64,000 bases of DNA from Brevibacterium daeguense (GTDB lineage: Bacteria > Actinomycetota > Actinomycetes > Actinomycetales > Brevibacteriaceae). The position numbers were made by a program, and so were the translations under genes. Below, in pieces: positions 26,166 to 49,925 of this stretch (the stretch's first letter is position 1; every line of letters starts with the position of its first letter). The notes under the pieces are model-generated. The model saw only the letters and a list, made by a program, of their open reading frames with translations, was not told where the DNA came from and did no database searches. The stretch covers positions 1 through 64,000 of the forward strand of contig NZ_JAJTWW010000015.1 of the NCBI RefSeq assembly GCF_021729135.1. The letters are read 5' to 3'.

Positions 26166-28352
26166 ATGAGCAGATCATTCTCTGCCGCGCGCCGGAGTAT
26201 CTGGCGGATACGGTATTCGCTGGGGCAGGCCATCGCCCCCAAGCTTCCCTCCGCTCCCGCGAAATCGGATTCTGGGCGGCGATCAGGGGAGGACGACAGC
26301 GGGGGATCCGCGACAGTGCGAAGCGAGGCATCCGCTCTCTGGGCGGAAGGCAGGAAGACGGACGCCTTGGACCTGCTGCGCCGCAGCTTGCGCGACATGC
26401 CGAACGACAGCCTCCTGTGGATGTCGTACGGCAATCGCCTCCAGTCCGACGGGCGTTTCGATCCCGCCTACATCGCCTTCAACAACGCGGTCGAGGTGGA
26501 CGCCGGCAATTTCGCTGCTCTCGAGTCCTTCATCGCAATGGCCGCCAGCCGGCAGGAATTCTCGCGAGTTCGGGAAGTCCTCACTCGGCTCCCCGAAGCG
26601 ATCAAGGGTCGCCCTCATCGACTCCTGCCGTCGCTCGACTTCTCGATTCCCAATCGCATCGATGAGGCCGTCGACGTCGTTGCCCGTGAGGGTGACATGA
26701 TTGCGCAGGCAGTGGTGGAGCTCCACCGGTCCGACGGTCAGGCAACGCTTGAAGACTTGGATGAAGTCGAGACTGCTCAGGCAAGAGCGATCTTCTGCTT
26801 GGCACGGGGGCGGAGGGCGGCAGCGATTGAAACAATCCGTCAGCTGCCAGAGGACAAGGTGCCGGTTACGAGCCTGCGCCTAGCGATCCGCCGAGAACTT
26901 GCACGTGATCAGCACGACGCGGCCCCTGGACTCTTGAGCGAATACCTCCGCGCTCGACCGGATGACGCGTGGGCGAAGAATAAGCTTCGCGTTGGTAAGG
27001 TGCGAAGCGATCACCAACTTGCTCAGTCTGGTTTTCCTTTTCCTCCCGCAGCGGAGATAAGGTCCTATTCTCCGCAGCAGAACAAGGTCGCATACCTTCT
27101 GCACAATTCGCTTCCCTACCATTCCGCGGGCTACTCGACGCGCACGCACGGTCTGTTGTCCGCTGTTCGGCAGCAGGGTTGGGACATGGTCGGCGTAACT
27201 CGGCTTGGGTATCCCTACGACATGCCCCAGTACAAGGAGCTCGGTCCCATTCAGGCAATCGACATAGTCAACGGCGTGCCGTACCACCGGTTGAGCACGG
27301 AACCGGGCCTTGAGATGAAGAAGCCCATCCAGCAGTATGTCGACCGCTATGTCGAAAGGCTGAAGGTCTTCGCCGAGGACGAAAAGCCGTTCCTGCTGCA
27401 CGCCGCGTCGAACCATTGGAATGGCCTCGCAGCAGTTTCCGCAGCTCTTCAGTTGGGTTTGCCCTCGGTCTACGAAGTTCGGGGGCTGTGGGAAGTGACA
27501 CGCGGCTCCCGCGACCCGGAATGGGCAAGCGGAGGAATGTACCGGTTCATGGCCCGCATGGAAGCTGACGCTGCCTCCAATGCCACACACGTTCTAGCTA
27601 TCACCCACGCTCTGAAAAGCGAGCTGATCGCACGAGGCGTGGACGGAGAGAAGATCACTGTGGTGCCGAACGGCGTGGACTCATCGCGCTTCCGGCGCCG
27701 GGAGCGTGACCGTGAGCTCGCCCAGTCACTCGGCATCAACAACAAGACCGTGATCGGCTACGTTGGTTCGATCCTCGACTACGAGGGGCTGGGACTCCTC
27801 ATCGAATCTGCCGGCAAGATTGCCAGCGAGCGTGACGATTTCGTGGTGCTGCTCGTCGGTGACGGTGCCGAGCTGGAGAAGTTCAGGACTGAGGTGGAGA
27901 TCGCAGGGCTGCAGCACCTGTTCCGGTTCACGGGACGAGTCCCCCACGAGGAAGTCGAGCGGTATTACTCCCTGATCGACATCACCCCGTTCCCGAGGCT
28001 GCCGCTTCCTGTCTGTGAGATGGTTTCGCCATTGAAGCCATTCGAAGCGATGTCGATGGAGAAGGCGGTCGTTGCGTCGGACGTCGCTGCGCTGGCAGAG
28101 ATTGTCAGACACGGAGAAACTGGGCTACTCCATGAAAAGGGCAACGCCGATTCCCTTGCGACTGCGCTGCGGCAGCTGTTGGACAACCACGAACTGCGCT
28201 CCCGCCTCGCGGTGAACGGGCGCCGTTGGGTGACTGAAGAGCGGCAATGGAGCCAGCTCGGGCGAACCATCAGCGACATCTATGAATCCTTGGGAGGACG
28301 CAGCAGTGCGCCGGCGGTCTTGACTGGTGCCGCTGCACTACGAGTCCCGTGA
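26166..28352 (+). CDS. Glycosyltransferase family 4 with TPR-like N-terminal region
   Basis: A 728-residue protein. Residues of about 55-290 show helix pairs with TPR character (ALDLLRRSLRDMPNDSLLWM, AYIAFNNAVEVDAGNFAAL). The GT-B domain begins near residue 300 with LHNSLPYHSAGYSTRTHG. It has KITVVPNGVDSSRF at the start of the C-terminal lobe and VSPLKPFEAMSMEKAVV in the donor site. It is a paralogue of the enzymes at 21550 and 30106. It lies 33 bases after the DUF6270 gene, so it may be the last member of that operon or the first of the next group. Confidence 0.87.
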   Translation: MSRSFSAARRSIWRIRYSLGQAIAPKLPSAPAKSDSGRRSGEDDSGGSATVRSEASALWAEGRKTDALDLLRRSLRDMPNDSLLWMSYGNRLQSDGRFDPAYIAFNNAVEVDAGNFAALESFIAMAASRQEFSRVREVLTRLPEAIKGRPHRLLPSLDFSIPNRIDEAVDVVAREGDMIAQAVVELHRSDGQATLEDLDEVETAQARAIFCLARGRRAAAIETIRQLPEDKVPVTSLRLAIRRELARDQHDAAPGLLSEYLRARPDDAWAKNKLRVGKVRSDHQLAQSGFPFPPAAEIRSYSPQQNKVAYLLHNSLPYHSAGYSTRTHGLLSAVRQQGWDMVGVTRLGYPYDMPQYKELGPIQAIDIVNGVPYHRLSTEPGLEMKKPIQQYVDRYVERLKVFAEDEKPFLLHAASNHWNGLAAVSAALQLGLPSVYEVRGLWEVTRGSRDPEWASGGMYRFMARMEADAASNATHVLAITHALKSELIARGVDGEKITVVPNGVDSSRFRRRERDRELAQSLGINNKTVIGYVGSILDYEGLGLLIESAGKIASERDDFVVLLVGDGAELEKFRTEVEIAGLQHLFRFTGRVPHEEVERYYSLIDITPFPRLPLPVCEMVSPLKPFEAMSMEKAVVASDVAALAEIVRHGETGLLHEKGNADSLATALRQLLDNHELRSRLAVNGRRWVTEERQWSQLGRTISDIYESLGGRSSAPAVLTGAAALRVP

Positions 28353-28414
28353 GCGAGATCGGCTAGTCCGCCGACTACTATTCCCCGTCATCCCCACACG
28401 TCCCCGGAGAGTGC

Positions 28415-29842
28415 GTGAACGAGAAGTTGTTGTACAGCAGAGGCTTCCTTCTGACTGGTGAAGGGCACAAGATCAGCGATCTGCCGTCTCATTGGGCATC
28501 CTTGACGTTCTCGGACTGTACCCTCTATTACGATCCGAGAGTGGAAGCGATCGTCACCGAAGGAACATCCGCCACTGTCGCCATTGTGGGATATGCAAGC
28601 GCAGAGATAGATGGGCAGAGGACCGCTGATCTGCGGAGCATTGCAGGACGGATCGCAGGTCGCCTGCCTGGGAATGCCAACTCGTTATTGGATGACTTGA
28701 ACGGCCGATACGTTCTTTTTATGGTGTCCGATGGCCGTATAAAAGTGCAGACCGACGCCACCGGCTTGCGGCCGGTGTACTTCAGTCGTATCCAGCACCC
28801 GCCCGTGGTCGCTTCCCATGCCGATTTGGCCGCGCGGGCCAGCGGCGCGGTCAGTTCGTACGCTGCCGATCGAGGTTTCCTGAACGCCCAGAATCTTCGC
28901 TGTCCTCCGGGCCGGGAGACCGGCTACAACGGAATCGTCGCTCTGACGCCGAACGTGGAGCTCGACTTGGAGACACGAGCGACCACCAGAATCTTTCCTC
29001 GGCGCCCCGACCTCTCGGACTTCGAACCGCTTTCCGTGGCCGAGGTGGTGGCGAGCGCGCGGGAGCACGTCGCTTCTCTCGCGGAACAGCGAGGACAACT
29101 GCTGCTCTCTTTGTCGGCCGGAAAGGACAGCCGGGCCAGTTTAGCAATCCTTCGTCCTTGGGCGGAAGAGCTCCTGGCGTTCACCTACGACGTGACCTAC
29201 AAGGAGAAGTCCCGCGCCAATCGGTTTGACGTTGTTGCTGCGGCGCAGGTCGCGTCCAAGGCCGGAGTCCGGCACAAGGTCTTACCGATACCGAAGATGG
29301 AGTCCGAATCGACCTTCTTGGATGTTCTCAAGCGAAACCGCAAGTGGGGCCACAGTGCATCCGTAGCGAGAGCCTACAGTGAGCAGCTTCCTGACGGCCT
29401 GCACTTCAGGTCGAATGGATATGCCGTCCTCGGCGACCACTATCGGTCCACGGGACAGAGCGCCGCTGAGACTCTGGATGCAAGCGAGATGGCCGCCATC
29501 GCTTCGCGGAGAAAGGCGCAGGCGCCGTTCGTCGTGGACATCTTTCGGGAGTTCGTTGACGGAACACAGTTCCCGGTGGTAGGCGCGGGAGTTCTTGACC
29601 CGCTTCGACTGTTCTATTGGGAGTACCGGTTGGGGGTGTGGGCGACCTCTATCGTTGCCGAGAGCGATATCGCCCACGAGACGTGCTTCCTCTTGAACTC
29701 CCGGAGGCTGATAGCGGGATCGATGCTGGATGCCGCAAATCGTGGCAGCACGAGCCCGCAGATCGACATAGTGCGGGAAGCGTGGCCGGACCTCCTGGAA
29801 GTTGACGTCAACGGAACGCACGTGGATAGCGAGGGGTCTTGA
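28415..29842 (+). CDS. Asparagine-synthetase-like amidotransferase without N-terminal catalytic cysteine (copy 1)
   Basis: A 475-residue protein. Residues 1-200 resemble a class II glutaminase (Ntn) fold, with LNGRYVLFMV and TDATGLRPVYFS, but the chain begins Met-Asn-Glu, so the Cys2 nucleophile is missing. The ATP-pyrophosphatase part starts with SAGKDSR at residues 234-240, a variant of the SGGxDS loop. Ammonia would have to come from elsewhere, or the synthetase domain may use another amine. In polysaccharide loci such proteins are suspected of amidating uronic acids (for example WbpS-type). The GTG start has GGAGA four bases upstream. It is one of three such proteins in this locus. Confidence 0.8.
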   Translation: MNEKLLYSRGFLLTGEGHKISDLPSHWASLTFSDCTLYYDPRVEAIVTEGTSATVAIVGYASAEIDGQRTADLRSIAGRIAGRLPGNANSLLDDLNGRYVLFMVSDGRIKVQTDATGLRPVYFSRIQHPPVVASHADLAARASGAVSSYAADRGFLNAQNLRCPPGRETGYNGIVALTPNVELDLETRATTRIFPRRPDLSDFEPLSVAEVVASAREHVASLAEQRGQLLLSLSAGKDSRASLAILRPWAEELLAFTYDVTYKEKSRANRFDVVAAAQVASKAGVRHKVLPIPKMESESTFLDVLKRNRKWGHSASVARAYSEQLPDGLHFRSNGYAVLGDHYRSTGQSAAETLDASEMAAIASRRKAQAPFVVDIFREFVDGTQFPVVGAGVLDPLRLFYWEYRLGVWATSIVAESDIAHETCFLLNSRRLIAGSMLDAANRGSTSPQIDIVREAWPDLLEVDVNGTHVDSEGS

Positions 29843-30105: not shown

Positions 30106-33100
30106 GTGCGAGTGATGGTTCGGAGGTTGGCCGGAACAGCGGGCGTTGTAGCGGTGCTCGCGGCGGTGCTCCTGGTGTTTGCAGCTGTGACTGGATCCCG
30201 GCTGGCAGCAGTATCTGCGAGCCTTATAGTCTGCACTTTGATCTTGTTGGCGAGCATCCTGGCTTTTCGCGTGATCGGCCGTTTTGCTACGTCGACGGAC
30301 CAGTTTTCAACGCGAGCCGGAAATCTGGAGCGGCGAACTGGGCAGGTTGCTGAAGCGGCAGTATCGCTTCGGGACCGTATTGAGTCCGCGGAGCGTGACC
30401 TGGCCCAAATGAAGACCGAACTTTCTGAGCGCTCTGAAAAAGATGATGCTGAGGGTCAAGCGTTTGAAGCGCTTGCTCAGGAGGTGGCAAGGGTCCATAG
30501 GGACCTGAAAGTGCTGCGCCGGCGTGTTCCAGCAAACTTCCTCGCTCCCGTGAAATCAGACCTTGCGGAGCTCAAGAATGGAACCGCTGATAACACGCGT
30601 GTCGCCTTCGAATCCGCCCTTCAATTGGGTCGGAGACCAGAAAATATTATTTCCAAACACCAGGCGACCAAGCTCTTTCGCGATTATCTCAATCGCGACG
30701 AACTGCTCCAGCTGCGTCCGCTTATAGAGGGATTCGATCTCCTTCGAAAGCAGCAGCTGACCACTCTTCGCCGCCTGTATCGTTTCTACCGAGGCGCTGG
30801 CTATTGGGATTTGGCATCCACGATTCTGACCGAAGTGCACCGGAAATCCGGTCGCGACTCAGATGCTCATGCTGTCAAGAAGATTCAACACGAGATCGAG
30901 CTTTTCTCTTACCCGACGCTCGTGCATGCTGATCTTGCTCCCGGGAATGCGTATGATCCCACGGGCCCGATTCTGCATATGGTCGGACGAGTTCTCCCGC
31001 AGACTCAAACCGGATATACCCTGCGAACCCAATATACAGCTGTGGCTCAGGCCAAGAAGGGCTTGCCTGTTGCGGTTGTGGGACAGTCAGGCATCACTGA
31101 CTTCCGGGGCGAAGAAGCTGCGCACTACACGCATATGGGCATCGACTACTACCTGTTGCCGGGAGATCCTCGTAACGAAATGCTCATCGACGACTGGCTG
31201 CGCGAGAACATCGTTCACCTGGGTCGGCTCGTTATGAAATTGCGGCCGAGCATTTTGCATGCCCAGTCCGACTTCTTCAACGCCTTGATCACTGATGCTG
31301 TTGGGAAAAAGTATGGCATTCCGACCGCTTATGAATCCCGGGGCTTTTGGGAAGAGTCGTGGCTTTCTAGAGTCATTGATTCGAACGACTGGGCGGATGA
31401 AGCCGCGCGCTTGTTCGCAATGTATGGGAAGCCAGCAGCCTACGAACTGCGCAAGCACGCCGAAGAAGTCTCCCGGTTGCTGCCAAACCATGTATTCACG
31501 CTGGCCGAGGTGATGAAGAGCCATATCTTGCAGGCAGCGGATGGTTCGCTCTCTGAAACCGATGTGACGATCGTTCCGAATGCAGTCGATTCCGGCAATT
31601 TCCCCGTGCAAGGACGAGATCAAGCACTTGCCGCGGAAATTGGTATTCCAGAGGGAGCTGTCACGATCGGTTACATTTCATCACTTGTTGAGTACGAAGG
31701 AATCGACACGCTAATCGATGCGTATCACCTTGCTAGAGCTTCTGTTTCCCAAACCACGTGTCTGCTACTGGTGGGCGATGGAGACTACCGGTCAACTCTC
31801 CAAGAGCACGTCGAGCGCCGAGGCGTCGAAAACGTAGTTTTCACTGGACGCGTGCCGCATGAGGACGTACTTCGGTACTACGGATTGATCGATATTTTCG
31901 TAGTTCCAAGAAAGCCTTCAGCTGTGGCCCACTTGGTGACGCCGCTCAAGCCGTTTGAAGCGTTCTCTACTGGGCGTGCTGTCGTGCTTTCAGATGTTGG
32001 CGCGCTGCAAGAAATTGCTGACCAATCGGGCGCAGTCGAAACTTTCCGCGCCGGTTCAGCGGACAGCCTGGCAGCGAAGCTGATTGCACTGATCAATGAC
32101 CCGGAACGACGCCACGATCTCAGCAGACGTGCCGCTCGCTGGGTGCGAAATTATCGGTCCTGGGACAGAAACGTCAATGAGTATTACAAGGCCTACAGAA
32201 AGCTGGGATACTCAGGGCCGGACAACACTCTCATCGAATCGGAGATCGCATTAACTGAGCGAGGTATCAACCCCGGCGAGTTGCTGGAGGAACTTACGGC
32301 AGCAAAGCTGCCTCCGTCCAAGGGCTGGTTCACCATTCAGGACATTCGCCAGTCTGCGCGATCAGTTCTCGAAGATGGATGGCGGTTTGCAAGCTTCGAG
32401 CCAGTGCCGGTTACCAGCATCAGGGAGTGGTCACGATACGGCGAGGAGCATCGTTCATGGGGGTTCCACCTTCACGCCTGGGAGTTCATGGATCCGCTTA
32501 TTCGGGAGTTCGATGAGGAGGGGGATCCACGGTGGATCGAGGCGGCAGTTCACATAGCGGTTCGCTGGATCGAGAGCCATCTGGGCGTCGATGAAGATCA
32601 AGATCCTATGGCTTGGTACGACATGTCGCTGTCCCTGCGAACGCCTCGGCTGCTCGCACTCGCCCTGCGCGCTGCCCGCATCGATGGGATGAGGGAGCAG
32701 ACTGTGGTGCTTGCCGAGGCCATAGCGTGGCACCTTGATGAACTGCACAAGGACCGCGCTTTCAACCCGAACAACAACCATGGGTTCTATACCGCTGTGT
32801 CTCAGGTTCATGCCGCAAAGTACTGTCCGATGTTTCCGGCAGCTCAGCCCACCGCAGAAGAGGGTAAGGAGCGGCTGGCCCGAATGGCTCAGTCCCAGTT
32901 TGCGGTCGACGGAGTCCACCTCGAGCACTCGCCGGATTACCATCGGATGCTGCTCAACTCTTTCGAGCTCGCTGTCACTGACGGTCTTATCGAAGATGAG
33001 GAAGTCAAGGGGCGGATCGAACGCGCAGCTCATGTCCTTGGCTGGATGATTCAGCCCGATGGGACCCTTGTTCAATTCGGGGACTCGCCGGAGACGCGAA

Positions 33101-33960
33101 TGGTGGGTCGTGAAGCCAAGTCAATTGACCCGGAGACGCAGTACATTCTCTCGGACGGTGAACAGGGAAGACGACCATCACTAGAGTTGGCAGTGTACTC
33201 AGATGGGGGTTACGCATTCGTCCGATCTCCACAGCCCAATGGACCGGGCGCCTTGCGCCAAAGTGGCTATCTAGCATTCAGCGCTGCCTTCCATTCTCGT
33301 GCCCATAAACATGCGGACGATCTGAACCTCGTCTGGTTCGACAGGGGCCAGCAGATCTTGACGGATAGCGGACGATTTGGCTATGGCGATCTCCTGCCAG
33401 CCGATTCGCCGATGCGTCGCGACGGCTTCTACTATGCAGCACCGGAACGCCAATACGTCGAAGGCACGATGGCCCACAACACCCTCATGATGGACGGCCG
33501 CAATCAGGAGCGTCGAACCCGTACCCCTTACGGGAGTGGAATTGGAGAGTGCTCGGAAAACGACGGTGTGTTCGATCTGTCGGGAAGGGTGCATCACGCT
33601 GACTACATTCATCGGCGACGGCTCATCTATCGCCCAGGAAGCGAACTGCTTATCAAGGATTCTGTCTTCTCCCAGTCGCCCGAGACCCGGGAAGGCACGC
33701 TGTGGTTCAACATCTCCGGCATTTTCGAGGTCGAATCTGCTGAAGAATCCGTGGTCTTCGTCGCGAGTACCGAGGCTGGCTCATTGCGTCTGGTGGTCAG
33801 CGGTCCTGGAACAATGATCGAGCCTGTTCGAGGTCAGATGAATCCAATGCGCGGATGGCGGTCGAGACAGGATCGTTCACTTGAACCCACGTGGTCCCTT
33901 GGATTCAGGTTTCCTATCGATACAAGAGCTTCGGTGGAAACGAGACTCGCTCTCGAATAG
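30106..33960 (+). CDS. Membrane-anchored glycosyltransferase fused to a heparinase II/III-like domain
   Basis: A 1284-residue fusion. Residues of about 8-58 hold two hydrophobic helices. Residues 65-145 form a heptad-like coiled coil (LERRTGQVAEAAVSLRDRIE). A GT4 domain covers about 288-700 (LPQTQTGYTLRTQ at the start, VTPLKPFEAFSTGRAVVLSD in the donor site). From about 720 to the end is an alginate-lyase/heparinase II-III architecture: a helical barrel with NPNNNHGFYT near 888, then a beta-rich part with HKHADDLNLVWFDRG near 1065. The topology puts both large domains on one side of the membrane, most simply the cytoplasm, which is odd for a lyase and suggests modification of nascent polymer. 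The start is GTG with AGGA nearby. Confidence 0.85.
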   Translation: MRVMVRRLAGTAGVVAVLAAVLLVFAAVTGSRLAAVSASLIVCTLILLASILAFRVIGRFATSTDQFSTRAGNLERRTGQVAEAAVSLRDRIESAERDLAQMKTELSERSEKDDAEGQAFEALAQEVARVHRDLKVLRRRVPANFLAPVKSDLAELKNGTADNTRVAFESALQLGRRPENIISKHQATKLFRDYLNRDELLQLRPLIEGFDLLRKQQLTTLRRLYRFYRGAGYWDLASTILTEVHRKSGRDSDAHAVKKIQHEIELFSYPTLVHADLAPGNAYDPTGPILHMVGRVLPQTQTGYTLRTQYTAVAQAKKGLPVAVVGQSGITDFRGEEAAHYTHMGIDYYLLPGDPRNEMLIDDWLRENIVHLGRLVMKLRPSILHAQSDFFNALITDAVGKKYGIPTAYESRGFWEESWLSRVIDSNDWADEAARLFAMYGKPAAYELRKHAEEVSRLLPNHVFTLAEVMKSHILQAADGSLSETDVTIVPNAVDSGNFPVQGRDQALAAEIGIPEGAVTIGYISSLVEYEGIDTLIDAYHLARASVSQTTCLLLVGDGDYRSTLQEHVERRGVENVVFTGRVPHEDVLRYYGLIDIFVVPRKPSAVAHLVTPLKPFEAFSTGRAVVLSDVGALQEIADQSGAVETFRAGSADSLAAKLIALINDPERRHDLSRRAARWVRNYRSWDRNVNEYYKAYRKLGYSGPDNTLIESEIALTERGINPGELLEELTAAKLPPSKGWFTIQDIRQSARSVLEDGWRFASFEPVPVTSIREWSRYGEEHRSWGFHLHAWEFMDPLIREFDEEGDPRWIEAAVHIAVRWIESHLGVDEDQDPMAWYDMSLSLRTPRLLALALRAARIDGMREQTVVLAEAIAWHLDELHKDRAFNPNNNHGFYTAVSQVHAAKYCPMFPAAQPTAEEGKERLARMAQSQFAVDGVHLEHSPDYHRMLLNSFELAVTDGLIEDEEVKGRIERAAHVLGWMIQPDGTLVQFGDSPETRMVGREAKSIDPETQYILSDGEQGRRPSLELAVYSDGGYAFVRSPQPNGPGALRQSGYLAFSAAFHSRAHKHADDLNLVWFDRGQQILTDSGRFGYGDLLPADSPMRRDGFYYAAPERQYVEGTMAHNTLMMDGRNQERRTRTPYGSGIGECSENDGVFDLSGRVHHADYIHRRRLIYRPGSELLIKDSVFSQSPETREGTLWFNISGIFEVESAEESVVFVASTEAGSLRLVVSGPGTMIEPVRGQMNPMRGWRSRQDRSLEPTWSLGFRFPIDTRASVETRLALE

Positions 33961-34012: not shown

Positions 34013-35746
34013 ATGAACGTCAACTTCATCTGCGTTGCAAGAAACGCGGCAGCAGGTTCCAGGCTTCCTGTGCTCTTTCAAGCGGCAGTGGACGACGCAA
34101 GAACGATTTTCGGCGAAGGCCAGGATCACCAGTGGAGTGACGGTAGAGTGGCCATCTTCAATGCGGATCGAATGCAGGGAGCATGGAAAACACCGACCTG
34201 GTTCGCTGAAAATTCCGAAGTCATTGCCGTATCCCAACCCCCAATTCCTGTTGACGCGGACTACACTCCCGAGCAGTACTGGAGTGGAGTCTCGACAATG
34301 GTTCGTAACGGCTCTTTTGACCGTCTGCTACCCAACCATTTCGGGATTCATCGCCGGCCGGACGGGTCGGTCCGCGTCTGGGCCGACTACCTGGGCATTG
34401 GTCGGTGTTATTACGTCATAAACGACGATTTTGTCGCTGCTTCAAATCACATAGGGATTTTGACTCATTTCCTCGAAGGGCCAGTGGAGGTGAACGGCGA
34501 TGCAGTTGGCAGGTACGTGCATGCTGGCTGGTTCACCCTTGAGGATTCCCCAATTCGCGGTATTCGCCGACTGCGCGAAGCTTCCTGCATAGACGTGGCG
34601 GCGGACGGGACGGTTGATTTCCGGGAGCACACCGATCTCACTGACCTCGTAGGAGCGCGACCTGGTAAGCCTGATTATGAACACGTACTCGAACAGACTC
34701 GCACTATTGCGAGGAACCTTGATGCTCTGAGTGTCCGGACGCCGGCTGTGTATTTGAGTGGTGGTAGAGATTCTCGAATGACTGCGGCCGTATGGCTCAG
34801 CGGAGGAAGCGATGCTCGCGTAGTCACCCTCGGCACATTGGAAGCTGAAGCTGAGATCGCTCAAGAACTCATGGATATCTACAAAGGGAGCGAGCGCCCC
34901 GGCCAAGAGATCCGACACGACATCACGTTTCCCAGCCACTCTACGATTACGATGACTCTGGCCGAGAGGTTGGAGAACGCGTTCGCGATGTGGGACGGCG
35001 ACGCCGCTCCCACAAACATCAAATCGAACGTCCGCATTCCCAAGGGTTCCGCTGGTTTGAGTATTGGCGGTGTCGGCGGCGAAATCATGCACGGTTATTA
35101 TTACCACCGGCCGGGAGACTATGAGCGCATTGAGAAACTGCCTCATCCGGTTGCTTATGCTGCAAGAAGCTTCCGTGGTGCTGTAACATCCGACCGCGCG
35201 AGTAAGGCGATGGAGGGTTTCTTCGACCACATTTATGAAAGAGCCAAACGTCACGGTCGCCCCGACATAGCCTCATTGGATTACCTCTATCTTACTGAGA
35301 AGTTTCGTCGATGGGGTAACCAGGCTCTTGGCTCGATGTCAGCGATCATGCTCTCCGGTCCAGCGTATGTGCGTGCATGCTTTGACCTAGAGCCAGCCGA
35401 AAGAGTAGAAAAGCGGTTTCCCCATGAAGTAGTAAGTCGTGCAATCCCGGCATGGGCTGGTGTTCGATACTACAAAGCGCATGTTGCTGACTCGCGAAAA
35501 AGTATGGCGAAGAAGTTGGCAACATTCGACACCGATCCAGAATACTTCTTCAATGTTTTCGAGAACCCCCGAGCCTGGCCTGAGTATTTCAATGTAGAAA
35601 AGATTGATGGCTTTCTTGACATAGTTCGCCGAGGCGAAGCTCTTCCATTTCATGAATCCTGGTTGAACCGTGCGGTTTGGGTTGATTATCTTGACTCGCA
35701 CGTGGCCAAGCTCAACCGACGCGTGCGTGAGGTGCAGGGAAGATGA
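34013..35746 (+). CDS. Asparagine-synthetase-like amidotransferase without N-terminal catalytic cysteine (copy 2)
   Basis: A 577-residue protein. The N-terminal 210 residues keep parts of a glutaminase-like fold (WADYLGIGRCYYVINDDFVA) but begin Met-Asn, lacking Cys2. SGGRDSRMTAAVWL at residues 249-262 is the pyrophosphatase loop. SIGGVGGEIMHGYYY later resembles the GxGGDE active-site loop of asparagine synthetase. The ATG at 34013 is chosen because AAAGG lies seven bases upstream. The following gene overlaps its stop as ATGA, so it is translationally coupled to the heparinase-hydrolase protein, which suggests they act on the same sugar. Confidence 0.8.
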   Translation: MNVNFICVARNAAAGSRLPVLFQAAVDDARTIFGEGQDHQWSDGRVAIFNADRMQGAWKTPTWFAENSEVIAVSQPPIPVDADYTPEQYWSGVSTMVRNGSFDRLLPNHFGIHRRPDGSVRVWADYLGIGRCYYVINDDFVAASNHIGILTHFLEGPVEVNGDAVGRYVHAGWFTLEDSPIRGIRRLREASCIDVAADGTVDFREHTDLTDLVGARPGKPDYEHVLEQTRTIARNLDALSVRTPAVYLSGGRDSRMTAAVWLSGGSDARVVTLGTLEAEAEIAQELMDIYKGSERPGQEIRHDITFPSHSTITMTLAERLENAFAMWDGDAAPTNIKSNVRIPKGSAGLSIGGVGGEIMHGYYYHRPGDYERIEKLPHPVAYAARSFRGAVTSDRASKAMEGFFDHIYERAKRHGRPDIASLDYLYLTEKFRRWGNQALGSMSAIMLSGPAYVRACFDLEPAERVEKRFPHEVVSRAIPAWAGVRYYKAHVADSRKSMAKKLATFDTDPEYFFNVFENPRAWPEYFNVEKIDGFLDIVRRGEALPFHESWLNRAVWVDYLDSHVAKLNRRVREVQGR

Positions 35747-38550
35747 GTGAATTTTTCGACATCTCCCGGCTGGCTGTCGGCTTCTTTGCCGAGCGGCCGT
35801 CTGATTTGGCAAGGGCAAGAAGGTTGGTCGAGGGTGAACTCAAGCTGGGCGATTTTGTTCTTAGAGTTGACGACCCTGCCACCTACGACCAGCTTGACCA
35901 TCTGCCGCGGAATCTCTGCTTGGAGCTGAACTCCTTACGGTGGCTGGATGTGTTGCGTCGCGCCGGTCCGAAGGTACGTGGTGCCGAAGAAGCCTGGAGC
36001 GAGATCTTCGGCGCGTGGTCACGATCGGATGCCGCCGCTGACGTGCAGTCGTTGGCGTGGCAACCTCTCCCCTTGGAGCAGCGGTGCATGGCGATTGCAC
36101 TTGGTGCCCCGGCCAATAGTGACGCCCTATTGACTGTGAACCGGCACCTTGAGCAATTGGCGGGTGCGGAAGACCAGGCGGTGGCTGCAGATCAGCGGCT
36201 GCGTCTCTTGCATGTCCGCCTGGCGCTTCAGTTCCGGCAACAGGGATCAATGGAGTCATTGAGAAGTTCCGCGATTACAGCGTTGAATTCTGCATTCCGC
36301 GAAAGCGGCTATTCAATTGCAGAAGATCTGAAAGAGCTCGTGCAGGTAGCGGCTGAGTGGAAGGACACTCTGCAATTGCTTGGAGTTGCCGAGGAACACG
36401 AGTCGATGCGCCGACTACGCGGCATCGAATTCTGGCTGCAGGTGACGGATCCGGCGGGCAACCTCGTTCCAATGGGAGGGGCATTCCCCGAGGTACGGCC
36501 CGGCAGCGAGGATCCCAGGATGAGGTACGCGCTGACTGGAGGCGCTGAAGGCTTTCCACCGACTGCAATCCGCTACGTTGAGCCGGGCGGTTTAGTTTCT
36601 CTTCGGAGCGGATGGGGCGAAACCGAACGCGCTGTCGATGAAGAGACACAGGTAACGATGATTCTGGGGCCGGTCCGCGGGAGACGCGCCCATCAGGATC
36701 CGTCGCGCATCACTTACTTTTCGCGGGGGCGCTCCTGGCTCATCGACCCTCCGACAGAATCAGCTGCTGGGCATGAAGCGCATTCCGTCGTTTCTGTCGA
36801 AGATGTGCGCTATAGAACTAACGGGGAAGCGGAACTGGTACGGCAGTACTCGGATGAGCGCGTCGAGGGCTTCGTAGTCAAGAACAGCCTGTTTCTCCAA
36901 ATCCAATGGCAGCGCCACGTTGTGTTTGCACGAACTGGAAATTACCTGGTGGTCGAGGACTCGGTCCGCTCGTCCGAACAGTTCGAAGCACATCTGCAAT
37001 GGATAGTGGCGCCGGATCTCAATATCGAGCCCGTCGCGCGGGGCTTCTTGCTCCATGACGGCAACGATACAGTCGCGATCACTATCTCCACGGCGGCGCT
37101 GAGAGACTTCAAGATTGACGAGCTGAGAAACGACGGTGAACGCGTTGCCTGGCGTATACGGGTGCCCATGAGCGGAACCAGCAGCCGAGCCGTGACAATA
37201 GTCTCCGACGTTGGTGACCGTGAACATTTTGCGGCCCGAAGGATTCCTCGCTCAGGCAAGGAGTTCACAGTCGACATAGTCGACAAACACCTGCGAGAGA
37301 CCCTTGTAGTGACTCCTGAGCTTTCTGCGGTGGTGCCGGCGGGGCTTGATCCTGAGGACGCTGTTACGCGCACCATCGAGCTCGCGGCCGCGGGAGCGCT
37401 TACTAACGAAGAGGCCCTTGAGCAGCGCCTTCTCGTCCGACGGGCTATTGAAGAGGTGAAGTCGCGAATACGCGACGCCGGGGCGGGGGTCGAAGCCCGA
37501 TTACGTGGATTAGACGATCTGTCGAACATCGGAAGGGAGCTTCGTGTAACTGGTTTGCGCGACTATGGCTTCGCCGCAGCCTTGATCGACATTGCGGGCA
37601 CTGATTTGGCTGACCGGCTTGCTAACCATCCCAGCGTCGGCAATGTGCGTCGCAGCCCTCTTACCCAGTGGGCAGATGAAGAGCTCGTCCAATCCAGTTA
37701 TGCAGTTCCAGTCAGGTCCTCGTACGACTCCTGCACGGTGCCGGCTTCGGGGCGTGAGCCTTACATCTGGAGCGTTGATCTGGGGCAACTGGTCCTTTCC
37801 AGCTATCTCGTTGATCAACCGGGGGAAGTGCTCACGGTCTACTTCCATGGGGCCACAGATCGAACACGGTTTTCTGTACCGCGGTACGAGCGGCTACGAT
37901 CCATGCCTCAGCTGGGCATCGGTCCGGTCATGTTCTTCTCTGACCCCTGCCTGGACTTGGACTCCCGGATGATTCTTTCGTGGTACGTGGGTACCGAAGA
38001 TCTTGATCTCCACAACGAGATCGGCAAAATGATCGACGCGTACGCACGGCACAAGGGGATCGATAAGGTGCTTCTCGTGGGGAACTCCGGAGGTGGGTTT
38101 GCCGCGCTTCAACTCGGGAGTGTGCTTGAGGGCACTCGGGTAGTGTCGTTCAACCCACAGATTCAGATTGATCGCTATGTCCCGCGAATTTCCGAAACTG
38201 CTCATTGGAGTCTATTCGGGCGAGACACCGTGAACGACGACCCGATTTTGGCGCCGCGAATGGATTTAATCAAACGTTACCGATCATTTGGTTTCGACCA
38301 GGACGTTGTACTCATTCAGAATCCCGGTGATGACCTCCACTACAAGGACCATTTTCTGCCTTTCCAAGCTGAGTACGGCAATTCCGGTAATGCCGAAAGG
38401 CTCCACACTTTCACGCCTTACCTTGGTCCGGGGCATCGTGTTCCCCCCGTGCAGGAGTATCTTGACTATGTACGAAAGGCTGTAGTCGATGCCGATGGAG
38501 AGTGGTCCCTGAAAGGACTCCGGATAGCTGATCATGCCCGAATGGACTAA
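35743..38550 (+). CDS. Heparinase II/III-like domain fused to an alpha/beta-hydrolase domain
   Basis: A 935-residue protein with no signal peptide. Residues 1-270 are helical and correspond weakly to the barrel half of alginate lyases. Residues of about 280-560 are the beta-rich heparinase half (SLRSGWGE, HQDPSRITYFSRGRSWL, LVVEDSVRSSEQFEAHLQW). Residues of about 680-930 are an alpha/beta-hydrolase: VYFHGATDRTRF (oxyanion-type HG), GNSGGGFAALQ with Ser782 as nucleophile, and a late GPGHRVP histidine. This pairs a polysaccharide lyase or epimerase fold with an esterase fold. The HxD pattern replaces the usual HxHAD in the lyase half, so lyase activity may be lost. Absence of a signal peptide suggests cytoplasmic action. 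Confidence 0.78.
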   Translation: MSEFFDISRLAVGFFAERPSDLARARRLVEGELKLGDFVLRVDDPATYDQLDHLPRNLCLELNSLRWLDVLRRAGPKVRGAEEAWSEIFGAWSRSDAAADVQSLAWQPLPLEQRCMAIALGAPANSDALLTVNRHLEQLAGAEDQAVAADQRLRLLHVRLALQFRQQGSMESLRSSAITALNSAFRESGYSIAEDLKELVQVAAEWKDTLQLLGVAEEHESMRRLRGIEFWLQVTDPAGNLVPMGGAFPEVRPGSEDPRMRYALTGGAEGFPPTAIRYVEPGGLVSLRSGWGETERAVDEETQVTMILGPVRGRRAHQDPSRITYFSRGRSWLIDPPTESAAGHEAHSVVSVEDVRYRTNGEAELVRQYSDERVEGFVVKNSLFLQIQWQRHVVFARTGNYLVVEDSVRSSEQFEAHLQWIVAPDLNIEPVARGFLLHDGNDTVAITISTAALRDFKIDELRNDGERVAWRIRVPMSGTSSRAVTIVSDVGDREHFAARRIPRSGKEFTVDIVDKHLRETLVVTPELSAVVPAGLDPEDAVTRTIELAAAGALTNEEALEQRLLVRRAIEEVKSRIRDAGAGVEARLRGLDDLSNIGRELRVTGLRDYGFAAALIDIAGTDLADRLANHPSVGNVRRSPLTQWADEELVQSSYAVPVRSSYDSCTVPASGREPYIWSVDLGQLVLSSYLVDQPGEVLTVYFHGATDRTRFSVPRYERLRSMPQLGIGPVMFFSDPCLDLDSRMILSWYVGTEDLDLHNEIGKMIDAYARHKGIDKVLLVGNSGGGFAALQLGSVLEGTRVVSFNPQIQIDRYVPRISETAHWSLFGRDTVNDDPILAPRMDLIKRYRSFGFDQDVVLIQNPGDDLHYKDHFLPFQAEYGNSGNAERLHTFTPYLGPGHRVPPVQEYLDYVRKAVVDADGEWSLKGLRIADHARMD

Positions 38551-38665
38551 ATACCACAAGATCTAGTTTCTCTCGGGACTCTCGACAGTTCTGGGCAGGT
38601 CTCGGTCGGTTCAACTGCCGAGATGCTCAATGGCCAGTGCGGGCAAAAGCGCAAAGGTGAACAAT

Positions 38666-39790
38666 ATGAAGGTTCTTCTGGCTCCGAGCAACGTAGCAAA
38701 TCAGTCTACTTCAATGGCTGCGGGCTTGACTGATCTCGGCTATGACGTGGAGGTATGGAATTTTGGTGAAAGTCCGAACGATTTTCCGGTGGACCGAGTT
38801 TTCTCTCCGAAGTCAGTCGAAGACTATTTTTCGATTCTCGTCGAGAGCATCGAAGCCTCCTTTGATGTTTTCCACTTTCAAACCGCTCGTTCTCTGATTC
38901 CATCGAGAAGTGGACTGCCTCAGATGTGGGATCTTCCCCTTCTACGCTCGCTTGGAAAGCGGGTGATCGTCTCTTTCCACGGGTCTGATATACGTCGTGC
39001 AAGCCATCACTCGAGGGACCGCTGGAGCTTTTATAGATATGCAGATATCCCATGTGACGAAGAGAAGATCGACGTTCGGTTGGCGCTCATACACACGTTT
39101 GCTCATCAGACCACGGTGTCGTCAGTCTTAGACAGCGTCTATGCGCCCGGCGCTAAGTACCTGCCCAAAACTCTTAGAATGAGTGACTATGACATGGTTG
39201 GGCAAGTGCACAGGCGGAGACCAGTGGTGCTTCATGCCTCTCGAAGAAGGGAGACTAAGGGCACTTCGATGATTGAAGAGGCTCTGGGAGCCCTGTCCGG
39301 GACCTTGGACTTTGAATTCCGCGTGATTGAGGGCGTGAGCCATCAAGAATTGCTCAAAGCCATCGCAGAGGCAGATATCGTCGTCGAAAAGCTTCTCGGC
39401 GGAGACGCAGGAGTGCTGTCCCTTGAAGCGATGGCCCTAGGGAAAGTCGCCGTTGCAAGAATAAGCGATGAAGTGATCGCTGCTCACCCATCAATCCCTG
39501 TGGTTAACGCAAACCCAGACACGTTTCAAGAAGTTATCAGTGACTTGATTGAAGATGCACAAAAAAGGAAAGAGCTTGGCGAAGCCGGACGGGCATACGT
39601 AGAGTCTGAGCATTCTTCAAGTGTCGCTGGTCGAATTCTGGATGAGATTTATCGGTCGGCTAATCCAGGTCCAGCTCGACCCCATCCTGACTGGGCGAGT
39701 GACCCGTCGCCCCGCAAACTCGAGGCGGCGTACGCTCGAATCGGGCGTTTGGAACACAAGCTGGATGCTCTGAGAAGACGGGCCCACTGA
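38666..39790 (+). CDS. Glycosyltransferase, GT-B fold
   Basis: A 374-residue protein. MKVLLAPSNVANQSTSMAAG opens a GT-B N-terminal lobe, VIVSFHGSDIRRASHH is the typical HGSD element, and VVLHASRRRETKGT begins the C-terminal lobe. The donor-site region is DAGVLSLEAMALGKVAV. It is shorter and more diverged than the three GT4 paralogues. The ATG at 38666 is chosen for AAAGGTGA five bases upstream rather than an upstream ATG at 38630. The C-terminus ends in a short charged helix. Codon use is more AT-rich than in the 17389-25221 operon. Confidence 0.82.
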   Translation: MKVLLAPSNVANQSTSMAAGLTDLGYDVEVWNFGESPNDFPVDRVFSPKSVEDYFSILVESIEASFDVFHFQTARSLIPSRSGLPQMWDLPLLRSLGKRVIVSFHGSDIRRASHHSRDRWSFYRYADIPCDEEKIDVRLALIHTFAHQTTVSSVLDSVYAPGAKYLPKTLRMSDYDMVGQVHRRRPVVLHASRRRETKGTSMIEEALGALSGTLDFEFRVIEGVSHQELLKAIAEADIVVEKLLGGDAGVLSLEAMALGKVAVARISDEVIAAHPSIPVVNANPDTFQEVISDLIEDAQKRKELGEAGRAYVESEHSSSVAGRILDEIYRSANPGPARPHPDWASDPSPRKLEAAYARIGRLEHKLDALRRRAH

Positions 39791-39889
39791 TGACCGATGA
39801 ACTTCTGGTTCTCTTTTCCGGCTAGTCGTTCGTGTTTCTGCGAAATATGCTCAAAGGGTATTCAGATCTTGACGGGGAGTTATCACCGG

Positions 39890-41455
39890 ATGCGGCAACT
39901 ATCGAACGCGCTCGGCGTTGTGGTCATTCTGATTATGCTCGCCTCGTGTTCACTCGGCGTGGATGGGGAGCGAGGAACTGCCGAGGCGCCAAATCACTCG
40001 ACGGGCAGCCCTGCAGTTCATTTCTCACAGGACTTTTACGGTCAATCACTTGATCGAGCTGCTATGAGCATCGAAGTCTCGAGCGAAAGGAATCAGCCAG
40101 GGATCGGTAAGAACAACCTTGGCATTTCCTTTGAGGCGACAGAGCTGGCGGATCCCCGCTGGGATCCGAGTGAGGGCAATGTCGACGAACTTCTCTCCGA
40201 GCTTGGTTCACCTGGTATACGCTTCGGCGGGAATAAACTGGACCGGAGCATGTTCTGGACCTCAGGAGGCGAGACCGCCCCCCCGGGGTACACCACGGTG
40301 ACCCCCCGCGATCTCCGGCGTGTGAACCAGACTGTGATGAGGGTGGGGTCCCAGGTCACCCTCGGAATTCCCCTCGGTGATTTCGATCCCGAGCGAGGTG
40401 CCGACATGGCCAAACACGCCGTCGAGATCTTCGGCGACTCCCTACTGGCGATCTCGATCGGAAATGAGCCCAACGGGTTCACTGCGGATGGGCGAGAAGG
40501 TCTGCAGATTCGCAATCCAGGCGAGTGGGATGAGGACGCCTATGTCGCCCAAGCCAGGGAGTATGTCGATGCGATCCGAGGGGCAGTTGGGGACACTGTC
40601 CTGCTCGTTGGGCCTGGAGCATTCGAAGGCGCCTGGATGACAGCGTTCCTCGAGGCTGACTTTCCGGGCACTGCAGCGCTGAGCCAGCATTGGTACGCGA
40701 CCTACGACTGCACATCGGAGGAGGTGCCGGGGCGCGGCCCGGAGTGGGAGAACCTGGTCGACCCGCTCGCGCACGAGAGCGCCGACCGACTTCTGTCCAT
40801 TGGACTGGAGAAGGCGGACGCTGCCGGAGTTCCGCTCTGGGTCGAGGAGACTGGCCCGACTAGCTGTCCCGGCACTAATGACACGTCCCGGACCCACGCC
40901 TCGGCGCTGTGGACGGTCGACTACATCTTCCACGCCGCTGGGCTCGGCGTGGAGCGAATGAACATGCACTCTATGCTCGGTGCGTGCGCCGGCGGTGCGC
41001 CGATGTCCGTAGTGTGCTCGGTCCAAGGGACCGGTGAGAACGGGGAGGGTGAACTCGTCGGGCAGCCCAACTACCACGCGATGCGGCTCGCAAGCCTCAG
41101 TGTGGGCGGCCAGTTTTTGGAGACAGAGCTCGACGGCGGAGGCAATATGTATGCCTACGCGGTGGACATGGACACGCCGGCTGCGGGTGACGAGAAGATT
41201 CTTGTCACCGTGGTCAACAACAACGACATGGCCGAGTCCGGCGGCAATGAGGTGACCATAGACTTGCCCGAGGGCTATACCGCGACGCGAGCCGCTCAGA
41301 TCCACGCTCCGTCCAACGCCGCAAAGAGCAAAACCGGATTCCGCGAACTCGCTCCGTTCGCAGAGACCGGCAGTGGTGTAGTGAGCTCCAAGGATGGGCA
41401 GCTCATCATTGACCTGGCGGCGAGTAGCGCGACGACGATCCAGTTCGCGAGATGA
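39890..41455 (+). CDS. Lipoprotein glycoside hydrolase, GH79-like (glucuronidase/heparanase type)
   Basis: A 521-residue protein. The signal peptide ends in a lipobox with Cys20 (LIMLASC), so it is lipid-anchored outside the membrane. A TIM barrel follows: SIGNEPNGF carries the proposed acid/base Glu193 and WVEETGPTS the proposed nucleophile Glu319 or Glu320, the clan GH-A pattern seen in GH79. The C-terminal 110 residues form a beta-sandwich. GH79 enzymes cleave beta-glucuronides or heparan-like chains, so an outward-facing trimming or release role for a uronate-containing polymer is plausible. The ATG at 39890 starts a proper signal peptide; a frame from 39797 has none. Confidence 0.8.
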   Translation: MRQLSNALGVVVILIMLASCSLGVDGERGTAEAPNHSTGSPAVHFSQDFYGQSLDRAAMSIEVSSERNQPGIGKNNLGISFEATELADPRWDPSEGNVDELLSELGSPGIRFGGNKLDRSMFWTSGGETAPPGYTTVTPRDLRRVNQTVMRVGSQVTLGIPLGDFDPERGADMAKHAVEIFGDSLLAISIGNEPNGFTADGREGLQIRNPGEWDEDAYVAQAREYVDAIRGAVGDTVLLVGPGAFEGAWMTAFLEADFPGTAALSQHWYATYDCTSEEVPGRGPEWENLVDPLAHESADRLLSIGLEKADAAGVPLWVEETGPTSCPGTNDTSRTHASALWTVDYIFHAAGLGVERMNMHSMLGACAGGAPMSVVCSVQGTGENGEGELVGQPNYHAMRLASLSVGGQFLETELDGGGNMYAYAVDMDTPAAGDEKILVTVVNNNDMAESGGNEVTIDLPEGYTATRAAQIHAPSNAAKSKTGFRELAPFAETGSGVVSSKDGQLIIDLAASSATTIQFAR

Positions 41456-41536
41456 TCCTGACTGAGGAACCCGCGGCTAGGCCTTTTGAGCCCACCCGGA
41501 CGGGCGGCGACGGTCAGATCCCGGGAGCGGTGGACA

Positions 41537-43093
41537 TCACGCGTCAGCGGCGAATGCAGCCGCGAGAACGTAGGAGACGTCCTGGTGAGTCGGATGGTTC
41601 GCTCGGGGGCGTTTGGATTCGGCCTTAACACTATTCACCGAAGCTCGGCACCGCGCGAGCACATCCTTCTCACCGATCAAGTCCTGAACCCTACTGTTGC
41701 CAAGCGCCCGATCAGCCTCAGAATAGAGAGCTGTGAAGGCGGCTTTAGCGTAACTGGTCGGTTCGCCGCGTGACTGGAAGTCCGCATAGACACTTCCTGG
41801 CTCGGCGGGCGGTAAACCGATAGAATGCGCCGCGGCGCTCGGCGCAAGAGAATCCGGCTCCTTGGCGGGGTCATCATAGGGGTAGTTTTTGATGCCTGGA
41901 ACTAGGCAATCCATGGTGTCGAAGTAGATCCGATTGGATTGGACCTCGGGTTGGTCGATGATGTCGTCGAGCAATATCGAATTCAGAGGTGTGAAGGCGG
42001 CTCTCTTGTGCGGGGAATGACCAAAGTGAAACCGGTTTCGGAATTCGCGATAGTGCAGCTTCTGCTGATCAACAGCTGGGCGCATCGTCGAGATTCGATG
42101 AAGGTCGTCGAGGACAATCGATAGGTAGTCGTCGAAAGTCTGGAGCTCGAAGTACTTCTTAGTGGAGCGCAGGCGCTCCTCCAGGCTCCTAGTGAAGAGA
42201 TCGCGGAAGGTTCCGCCGCCTGCACCGTGTCCTCGTATGGTCAAGGGGTCGAAGTCGTACGGCGTGAGATAGATCGGCAGGTACACTCCCAAGCTGTGCT
42301 CGCGCCAGCCCTCAAGAGCAATCTCCACGCTGCTGCTTGTCCGCATGTGGAACGGCGGTCCATTGAGGGTGACATCGTACGCCCGGGCGACAGTCGATGC
42401 GGCGGCGAAGTCCTTCGGCATGCGGGTCTGGGATGCAACGTGAAATCTGTGGGCTTCAGTCCTCATCGCGCCAGAAGCGAGAGCGAAGGCGAAGACAACA
42501 CGGGAATCGAGCCCACCACTGAGATCTACTGTGAAGTTCACACGCGGATCGCTCGCGAGCGTCGCGAACCGAGACCGCCACAGAAAGATGAAGCGGTGCA
42601 GGTCTCCGATGTAGTCCTTGTCGAGGCGAGATTTGGGCAGTGGGATGATCTTCGGGCCACCGCGATCGATCTGGACAACGCAGAAGGAGGGGACCAGTGT
42701 GATGTCGGCGAATATAGTCTGGGAGCTGTTAAGTTGTGCCGTGAGCGCTTGTCGCACGCCGAGCGCGCGTAGGACAGGCAGACACGGCTGAGGATTGATG
42801 CCACGCTCTCTGAGATGCGAAACCAATCGATACAGCGAAGATGATACTGCCCATCGTCCGTCGCGGGAATAGAGGAACAGTCGTCTAAGGCCACGGGCAT
42901 CAGTGCCGATCTCGATGCCGGAGGGTATGCGTCGAACGACTGTGTAGCAGCCGTCTAGACCCGGTTCAATTTGCTCGCCGGACGCTCGGTACGCCTGGTA
43001 GCCTTCTGCACCCGCGACATAGTCAGAGCCCGCGAAACAATAGCCTTCGAAAGTCTCATCAAGACGTCCTTCGAGGTTCGATAGCGTAACCAC
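41537..43093 (-). CDS. Asparagine-synthetase-like amidotransferase without N-terminal catalytic cysteine (copy 3)
   Basis: A 518-residue protein on the opposite strand to its neighbours. The N-terminal 165 residues keep a glutaminase-like outline (LDGCYTVVRR, TDARGLRRLFLYSRDG) but start Met-Val, so no Cys2. SGGLDSRVVFAFAL at residues 192-205 is the canonical pyrophosphatase loop. The C-terminal half is long and little conserved. It is convergent with the GH79-like gene and divergent from the ExoA-like glycosyltransferase. Sequence similarity to the other two copies is low by eye outside the loop, so they may act on different sugars or at different chain positions. Confidence 0.8.
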   Translation of the reverse strand: MVTLSNLEGRLDETFEGYCFAGSDYVAGAEGYQAYRASGEQIEPGLDGCYTVVRRIPSGIEIGTDARGLRRLFLYSRDGRWAVSSSLYRLVSHLRERGINPQPCLPVLRALGVRQALTAQLNSSQTIFADITLVPSFCVVQIDRGGPKIIPLPKSRLDKDYIGDLHRFIFLWRSRFATLASDPRVNFTVDLSGGLDSRVVFAFALASGAMRTEAHRFHVASQTRMPKDFAAASTVARAYDVTLNGPPFHMRTSSSVEIALEGWREHSLGVYLPIYLTPYDFDPLTIRGHGAGGGTFRDLFTRSLEERLRSTKKYFELQTFDDYLSIVLDDLHRISTMRPAVDQQKLHYREFRNRFHFGHSPHKRAAFTPLNSILLDDIIDQPEVQSNRIYFDTMDCLVPGIKNYPYDDPAKEPDSLAPSAAAHSIGLPPAEPGSVYADFQSRGEPTSYAKAAFTALYSEADRALGNSRVQDLIGEKDVLARCRASVNSVKAESKRPRANHPTHQDVSYVLAAAFAADA

Positions 43094-49909: not shown

Positions 49910-49925
49910 CCTCTCCATTGAAATC

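Follow-up and report, generated by a model that had tools for sequence, protein, structure and literature searches.

A predicted acidic surface polysaccharide locus of Brevibacterium daeguense with a putative exchangeable glycosyltransferase-heparinase cassette

The window, a stretch of 64,000 nucleotides from Brevibacterium daeguense (contig NZ_JAJTWW010000015.1), contains a gene cluster whose gene content supports a role as a biosynthesis locus for an acidic surface polysaccharide. The middle of the locus is predicted to be an exchangeable cassette that is set into a core and is common to Brevibacterium and Brachybacterium. Its central trio consists of a membrane-anchored fusion of a family 4 glycosyltransferase (GT4) and a heparinase-like domain (GT-Hep, 30106), a protein of the asparagine synthetase B type (AsnB2, 33995) and a heparinase-like/hydrolase fusion (Hep-Hyd, 35743). 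In the favored reading, which is given a probability of roughly 0.55, the locus would direct an envelope glycopolymer that contains N-acetylmannosaminuronic acid (ManNAcA), is exported by an ATP-binding cassette (ABC) transporter and has its uronates edited in the cytoplasm by the exchangeable cassette. The gene content, the synteny, the gene fusions and the retained and lost residues behind this reading could be established from the sequences. The novelty lies in the glycosyltransferase-heparinase fusion, the ligase without a glutaminase and the hydrolase joined to a dead lyase domain, and no earlier description of the cassette was recognized among the open-licence PMC papers listed by the literature searches.

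A first-pass annotation of the window had outlined one contiguous block (26166-43093) of glycosyltransferase (GT), heparinase-like, AsnB-like and family 79 glycoside hydrolase (GH79)-like genes. These genes are real, including GT4 enzymes at 26166-28352, 30106-33960 and 38630-39790 (the last just below the Pfam cut-offs), but according to the family scans the functional unit is larger (13966-48098) and the block forms its middle. The two claims that wecB and wecC provide a ManNAcA donor and that the polymer contains uronates are in agreement with the present data: both proteins score above the cut-offs of their equivalog models, and the UDP-ManNAcA pathway adjoins an ABC exporter.

Core genes and the link to ManNAcA

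The core of the locus comprises the following genes:

13966-15237 (-): WecC, UDP-N-acetyl-D-mannosamine dehydrogenase (NCBIfam NF008286 equivalog, 583 bits, cut-off 459)
15263-17224 (-): two-domain glycosyltransferase, GT1-like and GT2-like, the core marker (Pfam)
17389-19293 (+): CapD/PseB-like nucleotide-sugar 4,6-dehydratase with transmembrane-like segments (PF02719, E 6e-88; TIGR03589-like, below cut-off)
19251-20327 (+): TagO/WecA-like polyprenyl-phosphate sugar-1-phosphate transferase, the initiator (PF00953, E 6e-26)
20180-21553 (+): GT4 glycosyltransferase, true start uncertain (Pfam)
21226-23298 (+): GT4 glycosyltransferase, true start uncertain (Pfam)
23295-24170 (+): ABC-2 export permease, Wzm/TagG-like (PF01061, E 4e-11)
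24157-25221 (+): ABC export ATPase, Wzt/TagH-like (PF00005)
25218-26132 (+): DUF6270 protein (PF19786, E 2e-53)
46815-48098 (-): WecB, UDP-GlcNAc 2-epimerase (TIGR00236, 454 bits, cut-off 210)

WecB and WecC support the presence of a complete UDP-ManNAcA pathway in the locus. With the initiating transferase, the glycosyltransferases, the ABC-2 permease and the ATPase, the components expected of an ABC-transporter-dependent envelope glycopolymer locus are present, and the uronic acid donor pathway inside it corresponds to the teichuronic acid type. The best NCBIfam matches of the ATPase are teichoic acid and galactan exporters, below the cut-off.

All genes listed above are complete in five of five Brevibacterium genomes without the cassette (G010, G027, G038, G040 and G046), which were picked for having the two-domain glycosyltransferase. 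In these genomes no heparinase-domain or AsnB2 match could be found genome-wide at E ≤ 0.001, and of Hep-Hyd the C-terminal hydrolase-like part alone is present in two of the five. Of the 248 genomes sampled from the order, 43 carry the two-domain glycosyltransferase (E ≤ 1e-100), including 14 of the 19 that belong to the same genus. Owing to this distribution and to the conservation of the gene set in all five relatives, the left part of the locus is considered a widespread, but not universal, core.

WecB, WecC, Wzm and Wzt were detected in the examined stretch of all nine loci with a strong heparinase match (the window, G029, G053, G069, G084, G130, G196, G242 and G285, with G053 taken from a separate search). 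Within the order, 51 of the 248 genomes have a WecC match above the curated cut-off and eight have a heparinase match at E ≤ 1e-100. All eight are among the 51 (hypergeometric 2e-6) and, counted by genus, five of five heparinase genera lie within the 25 WecC genera of 85 (0.0016), both values ignoring relatedness, which weakens the link. It is further weakened by four loci with weaker heparinase matches (G204, G257, G282 and G287), in which WecB is present in two, WecC in one and a clear Wzm/Wzt pair in two; the WecC gene of G287 lies just outside the examined stretch. Weaker matches of this kind occur in 17 of the 248 genomes, these four included. In a phylum-wide sample, strong matches (E ≤ 1e-30) were found in five of 396 genomes including the window, and G361, a strong match outside the order, was left out of the locus inspection. 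The Brevibacterium polymers named in the text available from PMC6801904 are teichoic acids, which also speaks against a ManNAcA polymer.

The cassette and its proteins

Between the DUF6270 gene and WecB the following genes are located:

26166-28352 (+): GT4 glycosyltransferase with an N-terminal TPR-like part, travels with GT-Hep (Pfam; identity of relatives)
28415-29842 (+): AsnB-like protein 1 (AsnB1), SAGKDS motif, no Cys after the start (family scans)
30106-33960 (+): GT-Hep, N-terminal hydrophobic hairpin, GT4 and heparinase II/III-fold domain (Pfam, profile alignments)
33995-35746 (+): AsnB2, ATP-dependent ligase of the AsnB/beta-lactam synthetase fold without glutaminase Cys (predicted model, alignment)
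35743-38550 (+): Hep-Hyd, heparinase-like domain and C-terminal alpha/beta-hydrolase-like domain with GNSGGG (heparinase II/III C-terminal Pfam model, E 4e-6)
38630-39790 (+): GT4-like glycosyltransferase
39797-41455 (+): exported GH79-like glycoside hydrolase lipoprotein (E 6e-35 to 5bwi; lipobox LASC)
41537-43093 (-): AsnB-like protein 3 (AsnB3), SGGLDS motif, no Cys after the start (family scans)
43291-44370 (+): GT2 glycosyltransferase (PF00535)
44435-45397 (+): GalE, UDP-glucose 4-epimerase (TIGR01179, 347 bits, cut-off 262)

The order GT-Hep/AsnB2/Hep-Hyd is kept in seven genomes (the window, B. antiquum and five Brachybacterium) and for this reason is not a chance arrangement. In B. antiquum, AsnB2 and Hep-Hyd form a single open frame of 1518 codons. 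Full-length AsnB2 matches are present in four of the 248 genomes (G000, G029, G069 and G285), and the same four carry the top Hep-Hyd (at least 1498 bits) and GT-Hep heparinase-domain (above 1000 bits) matches. Near full-length, lower scoring relatives of Hep-Hyd (about 600 bits) were found in G130 and G244, without AsnB2. The GT4 at 26166 can be assigned to the cassette as well, since relatives with 50-54% identity are limited to G029, G053, G069 and G285, whereas the matching proteins of the remaining loci share 29-34%. The GT4-like gene at 38630 also adjoins the trio in B. antiquum and in two Brachybacterium loci (L029 and L030). As to conservation of the originally outlined block as a unit, the trio is conserved, but AsnB1, the GT2 gene at 43291 and GalE are not: AsnB1 has a sole relative with 25% identity in the L028 locus, and among the relatives compared the other two have weak or no counterparts, at most a weak partial one for 43291. 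For AsnB3, a relative with 54% identity is present in Brachybacterium endophyticum.

The G + C content of the cassette (0.53-0.58) differs from that of the core (0.63), and the closest relatives differ too. Best identities to Brachybacterium exceed those to Brevibacterium (B. antiquum or G053) for AsnB2 (70% vs. 53%), Hep-Hyd (63% vs. 49%) and GT-Hep (69% for the best piece vs. 61%), whereas core proteins match Brevibacterium best (WecC 79% vs. 69%, Wzm 75% vs. 46%), a contrast that is partly due to G046, as WecC compared with B. antiquum alone gives only 70% vs. 69%. Horizontal transfer of the cassette is a lead that the identities point to. As a proven fact it was rejected, since the trees do not settle the question: for AsnB2, a constrained grouping of the two Brevibacterium rows was not rejected (p-AU 0.32), and in the GT-Hep tree the three Brevibacterium rows form a group even without a constraint, albeit a weakly supported one. 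A search of plasmid records revealed none that covers 80% of GT-Hep, and a complete fusion carried on a plasmid was discarded as an explanation.

Some relatives show additional genes around the trio. In L028, L029 and L030 (Brachybacterium) a separate heparinase protein is encoded between GT-Hep and AsnB2 (around 9968-11734, +); that of L028 is 69% identical to the heparinase domain of the window, compared to 59% for the domain of L028's own GT-Hep. A second AsnB2-like family with 33-34% identity, also with Asn after the start, is located 3′ of the trio in three relatives (L025:16407-18152, L026:17326-19071 and L027:19837-21582), and none was seen in the window. In Nitratireductor indicus, the glycosyltransferase and the heparinase are neighboring separate genes, and no other window gene was matched there at E ≤ 1e-4 within 21.6 kb.

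For GT-Hep, Pfam matches to the heparinase II/III C-terminal domain (E 9e-18) and the heparinase N-terminal domain (E 5e-11) were obtained. N891, H892, Y945, H1063, H1067, H1069, D1087, Y1093 and H1124 are invariant in 11 of 11 aligned relatives, including the Nitratireductor protein with 30% identity. Thus, the catalytic Asn/His (N891, H892), Tyr (Y945) and second Tyr (Y1093) of a lyase or epimerase are kept together with the metal-type residues; the H-x-H pair corresponds to H1067 and H1069, the Asp to D1087 and the HNT-type His to H1124. These correspondences were read by eye from the alignments with the aid of PMC8006597 and PMC11848413. Asn/His, Tyr, His and a second Tyr are the residue class of polysaccharide lyase (PL) families 12, 17, 21 and 33 and of dermatan sulfate epimerase 1, DS-epi1 (PMC11848413; PMC8006597). 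The first-pass annotation had counted two heparinase-fold fusions; both domains were matched, but the full active site is present in GT-Hep only.

A GT4 domain needs cytoplasmic nucleotide sugars, and the synthesis of a chain that leaves by an ABC exporter ends inside the cell. Enzymes that edit such a chain are therefore expected in the cytoplasm, and the heparinase-like domain of GT-Hep probably acts on the chain there prior to export. Eight of eight fused GT-Hep proteins examined (the G242 protein was left out) have a hydrophobic segment at the N-terminus whose length would suffice for a hairpin, and a simple hydropathy scan revealed no export-like hydrophobic segment in two of two separate heparinase proteins (G084 and N. 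indicus).

AsnB2 had no match among PDB sequences at E ≤ 1 in a profile search, so a predicted model was used (pLDDT 79, pTM 0.84); the AsnB fold of the three proteins is documented by this model for AsnB2 alone. It aligns over its full length with TsnB9 (Z 25.7), E. coli AsnB (Z 24.0) and beta-lactam synthetase (Z 22.0), Z being 21-26 for this group as a whole, and the ATP-binding motif S-G-G-x-D-S, invariant in 10 of 10 rows of the AsnB2 family, agrees with an amide ligase. Unlike asparagine synthetase B, AsnB2 has Asn at the position of the glutaminase Cys: residue 8 of the model, with which the alignment begins, lies opposite AsnB residue 1, and Asn follows the family start position in all 10 rows. 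Beta-lactam synthetase is likewise not known to have the glutaminase Cys. Within 100 codons on either side of the open reading frame starts of AsnB1, AsnB2 and AsnB3, no in-frame start-Cys pair could be found. Because of this, the three proteins are not ordinary glutamine amidotransferases. The three asparagine-synthetase-like proteins of the first-pass annotation were thereby confirmed as AsnB-like (28415, 33995 and 41537), but not as amidotransferases, and its suggestion of an amidated polymer is weakened. An epimerized or trimmed polymer, which it also suggested, is possible. Since the ATP motif is kept, the best guess is that they may be ligases which use ammonia or another amine.

In Hep-Hyd, the catalytic Asn/His, Tyr and second Tyr are lost in seven of seven cassette proteins, one His-x-Asp being retained, and lyase activity is not expected. 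The G-N-S-G-G motif of the C-terminal part is invariant in all seven. As the family hints for this part are very weak (Asp2, E 0.73; XcbB/CpsF, E 0.001), acyl transfer by Hep-Hyd is proposed as a tentative function. A low-confidence model of Hep-Hyd aligned with DS-epi1 (6hzn) with Z 16.7 over 374 residues at a root-mean-square deviation of 19 Å, and the structural comparison list barely covered the hydrolase-like part. A second Hep-Hyd paralogue of G069 (Brachybacterium; L014:13926-16814, -) keeps the catalytic Asn/His and Tyr residues, which suggests that the cassette Hep-Hyd descended from an active lyase-hydrolase fusion.

Proposed role and alternative explanations

For the cellular site, the substrate, the reactions and the attachment, the following scheme is proposed. 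WecB and WecC would make UDP-ManNAcA, the TagO-like enzyme would prime the lipid carrier, the GT4 and GT-GT2 enzymes would build the chain in the cytoplasm, and Wzm/Wzt would export it. LCP proteins, of which four genes are present in the genome and none in the window, could attach the polymer to peptidoglycan. GT-Hep would sit on the inner face of the membrane via its hairpin, where its heparinase-fold domain could act on uronates of the growing chain by C5-epimerization, converting D-ManNAcA to N-acetyl-L-gulosaminuronic acid (L-GulNAcA); this appears somewhat more likely than cleavage. AsnB2 may spend ATP to activate the carboxyl group of the uronate and then link it to ammonia or an amine as an amide, independently of glutamine. 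The dead heparinase-like domain of Hep-Hyd could bind the chain, while the hydrolase-like domain would add or remove an acyl group, and the GH79 enzyme might trim outside the cell. A complete intracellular line resembling glycosaminoglycan synthesis, with a GT-fused C5-epimerase (ManNAcA to GulNAcA), amidation by a glutaminase-free AsnB and acylation by a dead-lyase hydrolase, all prior to export and with the cassette exchanged between Brevibacterium and Brachybacterium, is rather unlikely as a whole.

In chemistry, the closest known kind is the teichuronic acid of Micrococcus luteus, [-4)-beta-ManNAcA-(1-6)-alpha-Glc-(1-]n, a likeness judged by the polymer. Its ManNAcA stems from UDP-ManNAcA, as is proposed here, and it is likewise an acidic polymer of an actinobacterial envelope made by membrane glycosyltransferases (PMC3005890). 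Unlike the cassette, the account in the available part of that source includes no heparinase, AsnB or hydrolase. The locus offers candidate genes for ManNAcA envelope polymers of actinobacteria such as this one. DS-epi1 has the same fold class and active-site type as the GT-Hep domain and acts on its polymer during biosynthesis (PMC8006597). In contrast to it, GT-Hep is bacterial and presumably cytoplasmic, and a PDB search with the GT-Hep heparinase profile yielded 11 sequences at E ≤ 5, DS-epi1 not being one of them. Enzymes of polysaccharide lyase fold have mostly been studied as degraders. In the present biosynthetic locus this fold is coupled to a glycosyltransferase, and the locus thus provides a clear test of bacterial uronate editing during synthesis, as in animal dermatan sulfate. 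The core-plus-cassette layout could drive surface variation, e.g., against phages.

Several findings weigh against the favored reading. In G053, GT-Hep and a GT4 of the 26166 type are present, but neither AsnB2 nor Hep-Hyd was found within the 55 kb examined. The hydrolase-like part of Hep-Hyd is not special to the cassette, since Hep-Hyd matches of some kind were obtained in 37 of the 248 genomes, and the predicted Hep-Hyd model is poor (pLDDT 64). PL12, 15, 17, 21, 33 and 39 and human DS-epi1 share their fold and most of the catalytic apparatus (PMC8006597; PMC11848413), for which reason the residues of GT-Hep alone cannot separate an epimerase from a lyase. Minute changes have been proposed to switch between the two activities (PMC8006597). 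The closest solved relatives of the heparinase domain by sequence are lyases (profile search against PDB: 4fnv, E 1.5e-13; 5jmd, E 7e-9; 8bdd, E 9e-9).

The domain could instead be a genuine lyase. In the cytoplasm it would then cut or terminate the lipid-linked chain prior to export and in this way set its length or remove faulty chains. Its relatives, HepIII (PL12) and PL17 enzymes, share the profile match as well as the catalytic and metal-type residues with GT-Hep, so that a full lyase active site is kept, and the physical coupling to a glycosyltransferase would fit a chain-length device. They differ from GT-Hep, which is fused to a GT4 with a hydrophobic hairpin and lies in a biosynthetic locus of a genome without GH88/105, the family for unsaturated uronates. 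No match to this family (PF07470) was found in nine of nine heparinase genomes, although unsaturated ends could stay on the polymer. A cytoplasmic lyase is thus possible but rather doubtful.

In the reading as an editing cassette, AsnB2 and Hep-Hyd would be enzymes. Alternatively, the AsnB-like proteins and Hep-Hyd might be catalytically dead scaffolds which hold a glycan-making complex together. The loss of Cys1 in three of three AsnB-like proteins, the loss of the lyase residues in Hep-Hyd and the AsnB2-Hep-Hyd fusion would all fit such a role, but dead proteins would need neither the invariant S-G-G-x-D-S nor the invariant G-N-S-G-G motif, which makes it improbable.

Exosortase-associated extracellular polysaccharide loci are linked to AsnB-like and heparinase-like genes, and the first-pass annotation had compared the region with them while seeing no exosortase in it. 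The latter observation holds even genome-wide (98% complete), as PF09721, the one exosortase model tried, is unmatched; due to this the comparison is not borne out, and the exosortase link was rejected. In favor of it, TIGR04063, a model for PEP-CTERM/XrtA glycosyltransferases, recognizes the two large GT4 proteins with E 1e-98 and 7e-72, albeit below its cut-off, but export is assigned to an ABC-2 transporter, and the main text of the exosortase paper PMC1569441 does not contain "heparinase", "amidotransferase" or "asparagine". An actinobacterial version of such loci is very unlikely.

The use of an external uronate polymer, with GH79 and the heparinase-like enzymes degrading foreign polysaccharide, is scarcely credible in spite of the apparently exported GH79 and a nearby transporter pair (49985-53377), since the strong heparinase loci adjoin the exporter and UDP-ManNAcA genes in nine of nine cases and GH88/105 is absent from the nine genomes, for which a catabolic lyase pathway was dropped, the heparinase domain is fused to a glycosyltransferase in this locus, and no export signal was seen on the heparinase proteins examined.

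The GH79 lipoprotein and flanking genes

The exported glucuronidase-like enzyme of the first-pass annotation could be verified as a GH79-like lipoprotein. It shares the profile match and two Glu residues with GH79 beta-glucuronidases (5bwi, 3vny); Glu224 and Glu351, presumably the catalytic residues, are invariant in five of five proteins. Its neighborhood suggests an N-acetylated uronate as the substrate. The gene is tied neither to the core nor to the cassette and is also present in the cassette-less loci of G046, G027 and G265. One of two GH79 copies of B. antiquum (L020, about 10544-12118, +) seems to be interrupted, as the frame in which its match starts ends after 54 codons, compared to 517 open codons in the other copy.

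Directly 3′ of GalE, a protein of 284 amino acids with one N-terminal hydrophobic segment and no Pfam match is encoded (45394-46248, +). A protein of 518 amino acids (48383-49939, -) could be assigned to no firm family; it has a sub-cut-off match to a left-handed beta-helix, and its C-terminal third contains several hydrophobic segments. The polysaccharide locus lies between the genes for hydantoinase/oxoprolinase A and B (9965-13883, +) and a tripartite ATP-independent periplasmic (TRAP)-type transporter pair (49985-53377, -), which consists of DctM and an NMT1-like binding protein. Furthermore, a low-GC stretch (0.53) encodes a SIR2-like domain and a novel STAND NTPase in one protein (59303-61756, +). 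Its SIR2 part matches PADLOC ThsA models (E 2e-26), and it looks like an anti-phage defence protein.

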